DNA of 47,201 nucleotides from IMG/VR virus record IMGVR_UViG_3300032083_000228, positions 1 to 47,201 of that record. The stretch is one strand, 5' to 3'. A program made the translations under genes and the position numbers. Positions 5,199-47,201 of the stretch are shown here, one piece after another. The stretch comes from a virus. The notes below the pieces were generated by a model. It saw nothing but the letters and a program-made list of their open reading frames with translations, was not told the origin of the DNA and ran no database searches. Position 1 is the stretch's first letter; every line of letters starts with the position of its first letter.

Positions 5199-6035
5199 AT
5201 GACTAATAATGAAATATCAAATATAGATGGTCTGTCACAAGAACAGATTATGTCTATGATTGGACAAGAGAAATCTTCTACTGGTAACTTCTTACCGAAG
5301 TTAGCCATAAATAGATTTCCAGAAAATGATGATGGGGCAGAGGTACCAGTGGGATCATACGGTGTTTACGTTCCTGAATTAGATAGCATGGCTTACGGAA
5401 AGCCTGTTACATTTAGACCATTCATGAATGCATATCAGTACATGAAGTACGATGCAGAGAAGAATGAGTATAGCAACAGAAGTATAATCTTTAAGTCTTG
5501 GAAAGATGAGGCCATAGATATACAAGGTGGTATACGCTGTGGCAAAATACCTGCAAAGGAACTGGCTAATCTTTCTGATGAAGAAAGAATGAAACAGAAA
5601 GCAATAAAGTGCTATCGTTTAGTTTATGGTCTAGTTTCTTTTAAAGGTAGCCTTCCAGGTGGAGCTGATGCAGAGGTAACTAACTTGCCTGTACTATGGA
5701 AAGTAACAGGTAGTAACTTTAAACCTGTTGGAGAGGCAATAGAAAGTCTTAGACGCAGAGGTAAGGTGATGTTTAATCATACGCTTACACTTAAAAGTAA
5801 AAAGAAAAAGGCTGGAAGCAATGTATTCTATGTGTCTGATATAAGTGTAGACTCAGATGAAGTACAGTTTTCTGATAAAGAAAAAGAAATTCTTCTTGCT
5901 TTCCAAGACACTATCAACACAGAAAATGAGGAGATAGTAGAACTTTGGAGACAAGCCAAGAAAGCTGAACCTGTATCCGTACAGGCGGTAGAGGCAGAGT
6001 TTGATGATGATCCTATTGAAGTATTGTCGTCATGA
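5199..6035 (+). CDS. Putative single-stranded DNA-binding protein
   Basis: A 278-residue protein with ribosome binding site AGGAGG just upstream. Its central part has several aromatic- and basic-rich beta-like segments, and it ends in an acidic tail (VEAEFDDDPIEVLSS), the layout of phage SSBs such as T7 gp2.5. It sits between the polymerase and the nuclease genes and overlaps the nuclease start by 4 bases, which fits a replication or recombination role. I see no diagnostic motif, so the SSB call rests on tail, composition and context. Confidence 0.45.
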   Translation: MTNNEISNIDGLSQEQIMSMIGQEKSSTGNFLPKLAINRFPENDDGAEVPVGSYGVYVPELDSMAYGKPVTFRPFMNAYQYMKYDAEKNEYSNRSIIFKSWKDEAIDIQGGIRCGKIPAKELANLSDEERMKQKAIKCYRLVYGLVSFKGSLPGGADAEVTNLPVLWKVTGSNFKPVGEAIESLRRRGKVMFNHTLTLKSKKKKAGSNVFYVSDISVDSDEVQFSDKEKEILLAFQDTINTENEEIVELWRQAKKAEPVSVQAVEAEFDDDPIEVLSS

Positions 6036-6925
6036 GTTCGGACATCCTAGAAAAAGTTAGGGTGTTTTTGGAGGCTGCTAATAAAGATGCAGTCGAGGTA
6101 TCCGATGACTTGATCACTCAGTTTGGTAACGCTTGCATGGAATCATTCCGCAAGCAATTCACTGACCAAAGAAATAAAGAGTTTGGTCTTAGAGCATCAA
6201 GCATCGGTAGACCTTTATGCCAATTGCAGATGGAAAAGAAAGGCATTAAAGGTGAGTCGCAACCATATAATGTTAAGATGAGAAATCTATTTGGAGATCT
6301 TATAGAGCAAGCGGCAATGATTATTATGAAAGCATCTGGTGTAGAAATACAATCAGAGCAAACAAAGACTGAATACAAACTTGACGATGTTACTGTAAAT
6401 GGTACTCTTGATGTGGAGATTGAGGATAAGGTATGGGATATTAAAAGCGCATCACCATGGTCATTCACTAATAAGTTTGGAGAGAATGGTGGCTTTCATG
6501 CAGTAGCAAGTGATGACTTGTTTGGATATCTAGCACAAGGATATATGTATGCAGAAGCTAGACAAAAACCATTTGGCGGATGGATAGCTATCAATAAATC
6601 AACTGGAGAATGGGCACTAACTGAGGCTCCTTTAGCTGATGATGAATACAAAGAACATGCATTGAGTACTATTGATAATAATATTAGAGCTATAAATTTA
6701 GATAAGAAATTTAAAAGATGTTTCAAAGCCGAAGACGAATACTTTAGAAAACAAAAGACAGGTAATAAAGTATTAGGAACGGCATGCAGTTTCTGCCCTT
6801 ACAAGTTTCCTTGTTGGGGAGAAAACTTGCAGCTGCTACCACAACAGCAGTCGCAAGGTAAAAACCCCAAGTGGGTTTGGTATACTGAAGTCAATAATCC
6901 TAGGGTAGAGGACGATGGCTACTAG
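6032..6925 (+). CDS. PD-(D/E)XK exonuclease, Cas4/AddB-like with Fe-S cysteines
   Basis: A 297-residue nuclease. The catalytic signature is D127 and D136-I-K138 (strand VWDIKSAS). The N-terminal R-A-S-S-I-G-R-P-L-C63 motif and the C-terminal C252-S-F-C255-x5-C261 are arranged like the one-plus-three cysteines of the 4Fe-4S cluster in Cas4 and AddB nucleases. It probably resects DNA ends during recombination-dependent replication, or degrades host DNA. It overlaps both neighbours, an SSB candidate and a second nuclease. No other Cas genes or arrays are near, so this is a phage recombination nuclease, not CRISPR adaptation. Confidence 0.82.
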   Translation: MSSDILEKVRVFLEAANKDAVEVSDDLITQFGNACMESFRKQFTDQRNKEFGLRASSIGRPLCQLQMEKKGIKGESQPYNVKMRNLFGDLIEQAAMIIMKASGVEIQSEQTKTEYKLDDVTVNGTLDVEIEDKVWDIKSASPWSFTNKFGENGGFHAVASDDLFGYLAQGYMYAEARQKPFGGWIAINKSTGEWALTEAPLADDEYKEHALSTIDNNIRAINLDKKFKRCFKAEDEYFRKQKTGNKVLGTACSFCPYKFPCWGENLQLLPQQQSQGKNPKWVWYTEVNNPRVEDDGY

Positions 6926-45077: not shown

Positions 45078-45601
45078 AGTAGTCTCCTATAAGTTTTACG
45101 TTTGGTTACTGTGGATTCATAGTATTCTTGTGGCCAAGATTTATAGAATCCTATCTTATTTAAGTTAGAACTTGCTTTTTCTAACTCTTCGAATGGTTGT
45201 ATAAGCACCATTAGAAACTCGTTGTCTGATTCCCAGTCTGTATTCTCTAAAAACTCTACAGGTTCTAGATTATTACCTGGGTGTGATGCCATCAGGTATA
45301 CATCCTGTGGCACAAATACATGATTTAGTGCGTGAACATAGCTATCTAACTCATCTGCTGTCACTTCTAGGTCTGGACAAGCTACAATACAGATCTTTTT
45401 ACCAGTTTGTTTAAAGTTATTACACTGGTTAACAACTGTTTGTAGTAATTTTTCGCCAGATTCCTCTACAACTATGTTAATCTGCCCAGATGTCCTTGCC
45501 TGTTTAGCGTATGGACATACAGGTTTACCTCCTAGTTCTTTATTTGGTAACTCTAAGAAGTCTTTTGACCAGGAGATAATGTCTTCTGTGATTGTTCGCA
45601 A
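45065..45601 (-). CDS. Conserved hypothetical protein with C-P-Y-A-K motif
   Basis: 178 residues from a TTG start (no upstream ATG is possible because a stop lies three codons earlier). Features: W-S-K-D-F-L-E-L-P-N-K-E-L-G-G-K-P-V-C-P-Y-A-K near the N-terminus, I-C-I-V-A-C-P-D in the middle, A-L-N-H-V-F-V-P-Q-D-V-Y-L-M-A-S-H-P-G, and G-F-Y-K-S-W-P near the end. It resembles a small family seen in marine phages and bacteria (the CPYA signature recalls DUF1415), with no known activity. First substantial gene of the late transcript; the following Lys-rich gene overlaps its end. Confidence 0.68.
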   Translation of the reverse strand: MRTITEDIISWSKDFLELPNKELGGKPVCPYAKQARTSGQINIVVEESGEKLLQTVVNQCNNFKQTGKKICIVACPDLEVTADELDSYVHALNHVFVPQDVYLMASHPGNNLEPVEFLENTDWESDNEFLMVLIQPFEELEKASSNLNKIGFYKSWPQEYYESTVTKRKTYRRLLCEE

Positions 45602-45702: not shown

Positions 45703-45708
45703 ACAAAA

Positions 45709-45722
45709 ATATCTATAGATAT
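45709..45722. promoter_or_regulatory. 14-bp palindrome ATATCTATAGATAT
   Basis: A perfect inverted repeat just upstream of the ATG at 45,702 and downstream of the late leftward promoter. It may be an operator or leader hairpin. An AT-only palindrome this long can arise by chance more easily than a GC-containing one. Confidence 0.4.
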
Positions 45723-45725
45723 CAT

Positions 45726-45789
45726 GTAGTTACCGTGAATGTCCATGTGTTTTTTTAGTATTCATTGTGTGTGACCCTTTGGTAACTAC
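45726..45789 (-). repeat. 9-bp inverted repeat in the late leader
   Basis: GTAGTTACC at 45,726-45,734 and GGTAACTAC at 45,781-45,789 are perfect complements, 46 bases apart. In the leftward transcript they would fold a stem enclosing the 11-codon frame at 45,730-45,765, whose stop lies in the stem. This fits an attenuator-like leader, or a pair of binding sites flanking the start. Confidence 0.5.
45730..45765 (-). CDS. Possible leader peptide MNTKKTHGHSR
   Basis: An 11-codon frame starting about 30 bases after the predicted late transcription start, with a weak GGG-type ribosome binding site. Its stop codon overlaps the 9-bp inverted-repeat stem, the geometry of translation-coupled attenuation. 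It has a run of basic and polar codons but no amino-acid bias that would identify a metabolite sensor. Very short, so tentative. Confidence 0.3.
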   Translation of the reverse strand: MNTKKTHGHSR

Positions 45790-45800
45790 TAATTATATAT

Positions 45801-45829
45801 ATTATACAGCTGTATAGCGATTCTGTCAA
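45801..45829 (-). promoter_or_regulatory. Perfect-consensus promoter for the late block
   Basis: On the minus strand: TTGACA (complement of 45,824-45,829), a 17-base spacer and TATAAT (complement of 45,801-45,806). It matches the sigma-70 consensus fully and points leftward into the packaging and virion genes; predicted start about 45,794. No phage RNA polymerase gene is in the window, so host polymerase would be used. Confidence 0.88.
45803..45816. promoter_or_regulatory. 14-bp operator-like palindrome across the -10
   Basis: TATACAGCTGTATA is a perfect palindrome covering four bases of the late -10 box and ten of the spacer. A repressor bound here would block the leftward promoter. The half-site (CTGTATA) recalls SOS-type LexA boxes of gamma-proteobacteria, but the spacing differs and the regulator is unknown. 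Confidence 0.6.
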
Positions 45830-45849: not shown

Positions 45850-45878
45850 TTGACAAAATCGAAATAGGGGTGTATAAT
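45850..45878 (+). promoter_or_regulatory. Perfect-consensus rightward promoter
   Basis: TTGACA at 45,850-45,855, a 17-base spacer and TATAAT at 45,873-45,878. It lies 20 bases from the divergent late promoter. Its transcript would start about 45,885 (AGGGTCC...) and enter a region with no recognised gene. Confidence 0.88.
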
Positions 45879-45983
45879 GGTATTAGGGTCCCCCCCGAGG
45901 GTCCTATATGTATTACATAGGGTACTCCTATTAGGGACTCCATAGATAAATGCCCGAAAGGATCCATACTAATGTGGCCGCTA

Positions 45984-46234
45984 AAGTGGTTTACAAAGAT
46001 ATTTAGTAATTTTCCAGTAGTGGCGTATAGGATATAGCACCCACCCCCCTAGGCTACCTGCCTATCCCCTTGATAAATTTATAAAATTATTTTTATAGGT
46101 AAAATAAAAGTATCTATAAAATTTTTTTCATAGTCTTATAAAAAAATCTTTTAAATATCTTCAATTGATTAACGTTAAAAATAAAATCATGGCATACAAG
46201 ATTGCGTATCTTTTAAGCAACTTGTAAACCACTT
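45984..46234 (+). repeat. 13-bp inverted repeat spanning the non-coding region
   Basis: AAGTGGTTTACAA at 45,984-45,996 and TTGTAAACCACTT at 46,222-46,234 are exact complements 225 bases apart. Such a long match is unlikely by chance in a 500-base stretch. It either closes a long-range stem in the transcript or marks paired binding sites. Confidence 0.65.
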
Positions 46235-46335
46235 AATAAAACTTTAATGACTGGCTATGGTGTGTCTATTGAGTTTCTTTGGGGTAGCTGTCGTGAAGCT
46301 GTGGTGATGTGGGCGTAAAAAATTTAGGCATAAAA

Positions 46336-46367
46336 AAAGACCCATCAAAATTAATCAATGGGTCTTT
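46336..46367. terminator. Bidirectional intrinsic terminator
   Basis: A perfect 10-bp stem (AAAGACCCAT/ATGGGTCTTT) with a 12-base loop, 13 bases from the stop of the rightmost gene. On the minus strand it is followed by a run of T (stem plus TTTT), an ideal terminator for that gene. On the plus strand a T-rich tail (aattgtttttt) also follows, so it may end the rightward transcript too. Confidence 0.85.
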
Positions 46368-46380
46368 AATTGTTTTTTAT

Positions 46381-47201
46381 TTAGGCGACTTGAGTGTGTT
46401 CCTCAATTCCTTGATCTTCAATTACAGTTTCTTTATATCCTGTAATTGTTTTCTGATGTGCTTTAATTGTTTTTAAATGTTCACTTGCTAACTCTTTGCT
46501 AACTTGAACGGTTATATTATCAGGATCATTTAAATCAAAATTATTTTCATCATTTACATAGTTTAATAAATTTTGCCATGTACTAATAACTTTTAATAAA
46601 TCTTGAGTTGCTTCATTTATTAATTGAAAATCAAGCTGTGATTTTTCAGCAAGATCGTCATACTTAAATGAAATTTCTTTGTTGCCTTGCTTCTGTTCTT
46701 TTTTGTTAGGCTCCTTAACAAATGATCTAATTAAAGTTTTAAAAGTTTCCTCATTAAGGTTTTGTATTTTTCTTAATAAACTTTTTTGTCTGCTCGCTTC
46801 GCTTTCAGTCTTATTGATTGCGTTGTAAACATCTTTAATTTTTTCAAGTGAACATCTTGCATACGTGCCTTTAAAGTCATCAGCCGTTTTTATATATTCT
46901 TTATGAACTAACAATTTATTATTTTTGAAATAAAGATAATCAGATTTTTCTGTATTTCTTAAATCGCTGTCATCATGAAAGTACCAAATTTCAGCAATTA
47001 AGTATGCTCTTAAAACATTATTTTCAAAAGTGGTGTTTCTATCACTTGTTATAATGTTCCAGTCATCTTTTTGCTCACCTTTATATTTAGCCATTGTGTA
47101 AATTCTCTCAATAATTAAATCTTTTTGTAAGGACTTGCCTTTATATTCAGTATTTAACCAGTTCAAAATATGCGTGGCAAAGTTTTCAATTACACTTGAT
47201 G
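46381..47201 (-). CDS. Hypothetical protein, 5' end outside the window
   Basis: At least 273 codons. The frame stays open to the window edge (residues SSVIENFATHILNWL precede the TTG at 47,166), so the real start lies beyond. It is helical and charged: K-Y-K-G-E-Q-K-D-D-W-N, A-Y-L-I-A-E-I-W-Y-F-H-D-D-S-D-L, S-L-L-R-K-I-Q-N-L-N-E-E-T-F-K-T-L-I-R-S-F, then a basic linker and a terminal helix. No motif or family recognised. It is convergent with the rightward transcript and separated by the terminator. It may be phage or flanking host sequence. Confidence 0.65.
   Translation of the reverse strand, partial: SSVIENFATHILNWLNTEYKGKSLQKDLIIERIYTMAKYKGEQKDDWNIITSDRNTTFENNVLRAYLIAEIWYFHDDSDLRNTEKSDYLYFKNNKLLVHKEYIKTADDFKGTYARCSLEKIKDVYNAINKTESEASRQKSLLRKIQNLNEETFKTLIRSFVKEPNKKEQKQGNKEISFKYDDLAEKSQLDFQLINEATQDLLKVISTWQNLLNYVNDENNFDLNDPDNITVQVSKELASEHLKTIKAHQKTITGYKETVIEDQGIEEHTQVA

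Follow-up and report, generated by a model that had tools for sequence, protein, structure and literature searches.

A conserved non-coding locus of HMO-2011-type marine phages is a possible cis-acting control site and candidate replication origin

The 47,201-nt stretch analyzed here (the window) is a virus record with minus-strand structural genes at approximately 9.7 to 45.6 kb and plus-strand replication genes at 0.8 to 9.7 kb. Three of the relatives compared (L002, L006, and L032) run past its right end and join its left end, indicating that about 5 kb of a genome of about 52 kb is missing from the window. Judged by its sequence, it is an HMO-2011-type marine phage. In this group, the hallmark is a partial DnaJ domain in the center of PolA, flanked by the exonuclease and polymerase domains (PMC9038755). 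The window's PolA carries a DnaJ-type zinc domain (Pfam DnaJ_CXXCXGXG, residues 297 to 337, E value of 5.5e-6) between exonuclease (residues 23 to 160) and polymerase (residues 357 to 674) domains, with a score of 27.0 bits that falls under the curated cutoff of 32.7. Its terminase is 71.6% identical to that of Pelagibacter phage HTVC033P and 49 to 55% identical to those of other isolates, with values of about 50 to 55% for HMO-2011 and the Roseobacter CRP phages. As a type, these phages belong to the dominant marine phages, HTVC033P ranking among the most abundant of the pelagiphage isolates (PMC9038755). The replication module consists of a primase, a DnaB-like helicase, and the DnaJ-domain PolA; no recognized replication initiator, and no protein recognizable as a binder of the repeated sites described below, was found among the early proteins scanned, with about 5 kb of the genome lying outside the window. 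The early region also encodes a Cas4-domain-type exonuclease adjoining a RusA-like resolvase (6032-6925, plus strand). No tRNA genes were found in the window.

Two sigma70 promoters with perfect consensus (TTGACA-17-TATAAT, 12/12) lie back to back near the right end of the window. The leftward promoter (45801-45829, minus strand) is upstream of the minus-strand structural operon, and the rightward one (45850-45878, plus strand), recognized by its match to the consensus, feeds a predicted non-coding transcript. These are the only two consensus-perfect promoters in the window, where shuffling gives an expectation of 0.05. The first-pass annotation had called the rightward promoter perfect, which we can confirm, and had not mentioned its divergent partner. 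Among 55 unique metagenomic loci of the same kind, the rightward promoter matched at 11 or more of 12 positions in 54 (2/55 after shuffling), and the leftward one did so in 53, with 12/12 in 51. A clear rightward consensus promoter was not found in most of the Roseobacter and SAR116 relatives. The promoter pattern had two matches in host genomes, neither with the conserved core described below, which is consistent with chance. At L209 (BNVH01000148.1), from a Synergistales genome, the pattern was matched within an apparent CRISPR array whose repeat is GTTTTATGTCTTCCTTTTAGGGATTGAAAC; this match is probably due to chance.

The transcript, predicted solely from the promoter, would cover 45885-46370 on the plus strand. 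It had been described as about 490 nt without a recognizable gene, and this holds: the longest plus-strand open reading frame wholly within 45885-46335 encodes 23 amino acids, and frame-breaking indels occur among relatives. A small protein encoded at the locus was rejected, as there is no conserved open reading frame. The predicted transcript begins with a GC-rich hairpin (45884-45906, plus strand; TAGGGTCC / GGGTCCTA) for which 92% of cells are paired among 13 relatives, with no double changes. The 5' part has a G+C content of 41 to 44%, versus 24 to 34% in its surroundings, so that it is indeed GC-rich, if slightly less strikingly than first stated. It gives way to an AT-rich stretch with 16 to 24% G+C (46080-46200). 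A hairpin at 46336-46367 had been taken for a strong terminator of this transcript. The hairpin is present, but its canonical U-tract is on the minus strand, the plus-strand side has a poorer tract (AATTGTTTTTT), and terminator prediction flags the minus strand only. A run of at least five U residues follows the hairpin on the minus strand in 24 of 48 relatives, versus 4 of 48 on the plus strand. The hairpin therefore appears to serve chiefly the convergent gene at 46381-47199, and the 3' end of the plus-strand transcript is only provisional.

Relatives of the locus were gathered by DUF6875-neighbor, pattern, and terminase searches, which yielded 66 unique core-bearing loci, 55 of them metagenomic. 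A nucleotide search of a phage collection gave no match, and the relatives were drawn from metagenomic viral contigs. The promoter pair and a core of approximately 85 nt are common to the 55 metagenomic loci. In the window, the core occupies 45984-46068 on the plus strand, reads GTGGTTTACA .. ATTTTC .. TATA .. ACCCCCC .. GGCnACCTGC, and is detected with an nhmmer E value of 3.5e-18, once per genome; the wider consensus is GTGGTTWACA - ATTTTC - TATATA - ACCCCC - TGGCnCnYGC. The loci fall into group A, which resembles the window (TATAATGGTATTA), group B, which resembles HTVC033P (TATAATGTTATTAGG), and the more distant groups C and D. The AT content of the stretch after the core is 0.77 to 0.83 in group A and 0.61 to 0.62 in group B, so that AT-richness is marked in the former and absent in the latter. 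In group B (L137 to L191, about 45 nt after ATTTTCTGG), core cassettes are swapped between near-identical flanks, as a comparison of L147 with L149 shows, a pattern suggestive of recombination or of diversifying selection.

The core is also present as a single copy in nearly all related isolates examined, whose hosts are SAR11, SAR116, and Roseobacter. It lies at 53,555-53,637 of the HMO-2011 record and at 51,728-51,807 of the HTVC033P record, the latter phage carrying the full architecture of the locus, and it is likewise single in CRP-1, -2, -9, -13, -207, -235, -345, and -603, HTVC103P, HTVC104P, and ctYwJ313. Scores were weak in CRP-3, CRP-212, and HTVC033P, and the CRP-738 core was recognized by eye only. 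In HTVC115P, inspection by eye indicates that the promoter pair is kept, that the C-rich part is on the opposite strand, and that a terminator-like hairpin precedes the core. Across the isolates examined, the core always lies within an unannotated gap and on the strand opposite the terminase. Such a range of hosts, with one core per genome, is what would be expected if the element served replication or control.

The genes next to the locus vary. Nearly every member has a convergent gene downstream, and these genes sort into six or more families among which no relationship was detected, in a comparison that left out the plus-strand downstream proteins of the two exceptions, L032 and L068. In CRP-235, -212, and -3, minus-strand genes flank the gap on both sides. 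These arrangements argue that the locus is not the leader of one gene, and the reading as a 5' leader of the downstream gene was rejected for almost every member on the convergent orientation of that gene and its membership in several unrelated families. A partner protein encoded by the downstream gene was rejected for want of a common family. The position of the convergent gene (46381-47199 in the window) is an exchangeable slot, filled by several unrelated, highly charged proteins of about 260 to 390 amino acids that belong to no known family.

The element that opens the core recurs at the locus as GTGGTTWACA-type sites. Four of the window's eight best sites, in a matrix scan of all 47,201 bp with a matrix built from core sites that included the window's own, fall within 507 bp. 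Two lie within the leftward-operon leader (GTAGTTACCG, 45726-45735, plus strand, ranked eighth; GTAGTTACCA, 45780-45789, minus strand, ranked fourth), where they form an imperfect inverted repeat (I1), and two joint-best copies of GTGGTTTACA lie at 45986-45995 (plus strand) and 46223-46232 (minus strand). In HTVC115P and HTVC103P, the corresponding copies (CTAGTTAACA/CTAGTTTACA) are direct repeats, three in the former, one of which falls inside the spacer of the leftward promoter, and two in the latter. Direct repeats cannot form the long-range helix described below and so fit DNA sites rather than an RNA stem. The third-best matrix match is nearby, at 45425, where a half-core-like stretch (CTGGTTAACAACTGTTTGTAGTAATTTTTCGCCAG, 45425-45460, plus strand) lies inside the DUF6875 gene; this stretch recurs in L008, L009, L012, L013, L048, and L051. 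The leftward-operon leader (45703-45795, minus strand) contains an imperfect inverted repeat (GTAGTTACC / GGTAACTAC) and an element, TGTGTGTGACC, conserved in group A and partly in group C. DnaA boxes numbered 11 versus 5.8 expected, an unconvincing excess on which a DnaA-dependent origin was rejected.

The simplest reading offered by the first-pass annotation was a dedicated structured RNA, and a 13-bp long-range complement had been proposed as its closing stem. The complement is exact (AAGTGGTTTACAA, 45984-45996, and TTGTAAACCACTT, 46222-46234, plus strand), and this helix is the one RNA feature with support, in the form of compensatory, G-U-tolerant change. Among 13 group A sequences, 86% of its cells are paired and eight are double-change cells (P = 0.0075 for both by arm shuffling), and pairing falls to 30 to 40% when the partner is slid along the sequence. 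Among 39 group B sequences, 88% of cells are paired, which is not significant by arm shuffling (P of 0.06 to 0.14 for pairing and double changes); there, the 3' arm has C or U opposite the two central invariant G residues in all but two cells. The group B 5' domain had no covariation in excess of a tree-based null, and its folds were no better than those of alignments evolved on the same tree. As a single sequence, the window transcript folds only moderately better than shuffled versions (z of −2.2). Mean fold z-scores among relatives were −1.5 for the plus strand and −2.4 for the minus strand, and values for the Roseobacter and SAR116 gaps lay between +0.4 and −3.5, the plus strand not being favored. 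Seventy core cassettes had mean z-scores of −0.15 on one strand and −0.20 on the other, like shuffled sequence. There was no Rfam match at gathering or relaxed thresholds, and GOLLD and ROOL were absent even from the relaxed matches. A large structured RNA was rejected on the modest z-scores, the lack of covariation above the tree null, and a core that folds like shuffled sequence. What stands of that reading is a conserved promoter with only a non-coding product, placed independently of its neighbors, and one covarying helix.

Taken as a whole, the locus resembles a DNA control site with a secondary untranslated transcript more than it does a large folded RNA machine. The reading that we favor, at a probability of roughly 40%, is that of a conserved non-coding locus exerting control in cis, which most likely is a replication origin activated by its own untranslated transcript. 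The locus lies at the divergence point of the genome's two transcription arms, and the approximately 85-bp linear core and the repeated GTGGTTWACA-type sites would be its essential part. Its conservation, promoters, and site cluster and its lack of a conserved gene are observed; the mechanism that follows is inference. Host RNA polymerase would fire from the perfect rightward promoter, and the untranslated transcript would cross the core; transcription through the core could open or prime the DNA, giving access to the primase, the DnaB-like helicase, and the DnaJ-domain PolA of the phage, and the repeated sites may bind a phage or host factor. Consistent with a transcript-activated origin, a near-perfect promoter (by consensus) is directed into non-coding DNA although it feeds no gene, and the core shows no RNA-fold constraint. 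Against it, DnaA boxes are not in convincing excess, most Roseobacter and SAR116 relatives have no clear rightward consensus promoter, the rightward transcript of HTVC115P appears by eye to terminate before the core, the AT-rich stretch is found in group A but not in group B, and the long-range helix covaries as RNA. The first-pass annotation had named an origin or packaging site as its main alternative; the clustered sites and linear core fit this at least as well as they fit a structured RNA.

The main rival, which we regard as rather unlikely, is a functional early non-coding RNA of approximately 400 to 490 nt with a dedicated promoter, closed by the long-range helix that joins the core to the 3' part, with a trans-acting role directed at RNA or protein of the host or the phage; such an RNA would be largely unstructured or protein-chaperoned rather than ornate. 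Points in its favor are a dedicated promoter that is near-perfect at 54 of the 55 loci, the independence from neighboring genes, and the 86 to 88% pairing of the helix, which in group A has undergone compensatory changes and in group B has C or U opposite two invariant G positions in nearly all sequences. However, beyond this helix there is no consensus fold, z-scores are weak with the minus strand no worse, the group B helix is not clearly above arm shuffling, and the inverted arrangement of sites is lost in HTVC103P and HTVC115P. In addition, the subtype of L032 and L068 has a plus-strand gene downstream with no clear terminator, and the 3' end is provisional. Antisense pairing with the leftward leader was rejected, as complementarity scores were 22.5 within phages, 22.6 between phages, and 22.3 for shuffled sequence. 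That the locus represents an undescribed class of phage non-coding RNA, namely, a short, early, trans-acting transcript with an approximately 85-nt core across SAR11, SAR116, and Roseobacter phages, a hypervariable cassette that recombines, and closure by a long-range helix, seems doubtful to us.

A cluster of operators without origin function also fits the repeats. Here, a phage regulator bound to the GTGGTTWACA-type sites would switch the divergent promoters between early and late expression, and the transcript would be a by-product. The sites flank both promoters, the promoter pair is nearly invariant, and a site copy sits within the leftward promoter spacer of HTVC115P. Yet the core reaches far past the sites and lies 100 to 150 bp downstream of the rightward promoter, group B has no evident sites in its leaders, and no regulator gene was identified. 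We consider this reading improbable. A packaging (pac) site recognized by the small terminase subunit is very improbable: terS is the first annotated gene beside the locus in HTVC033P, HTVC103P, and HTVC115P, but in HMO-2011 and the CRP phages kilobases separate the two, and a pac site has no need of a promoter.

Transcription-activated or transcript-primed phage origins include the T7 primary origin, the T4 R-loop origins, and lambda ori. The locus shares with these a promoter directed into non-coding DNA, an AT-rich stretch (in group A), and an accompanying primase, DnaB-like helicase, and PolA; it differs in its host-type sigma70 consensus promoters, its C-rich core, and its paired GTGGTTWACA sites, and in being known from sequence alone. 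With iteron-type origins and operator arrays it has in common clustered repeats of one site of approximately 10 bp, as found with the matrix that includes the window's sites, whereas its copies are few and widely spaced, their orientation varies between phage groups, and no initiator was identified. GOLLD and ROOL are likewise phage-encoded, non-coding, and several hundred nucleotides long, with extensive covarying structure and often a location near tRNA islands (PMC12286853); unlike them, the locus has no Rfam match, a weak fold, and no tRNA nearby. The nearest counterparts are the gaps of HMO-2011-type isolates (HTVC033P, HMO-2011, CRP-1, and others), which have the same core on the same strand relative to the terminase and are unannotated in their records. 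A word search of the main paper on these phages (PMC9038755) found no use of "promoter," "intergenic," or "ncRNA," and no published description of an HMO-2011 non-coding RNA or replication origin was found in the open literature, subscription journals and preprints being outside the scope of the search. The isolate records examined carry no annotation for the most conserved non-coding locus of HMO-2011-type phages. To name this locus provides a testable candidate for the start of replication or for the split between early and late transcription, and it is carried by cultured phages with known hosts (HTVC033P on HTCC1062, the CRP phages, and HMO-2011 on IMCC1322).
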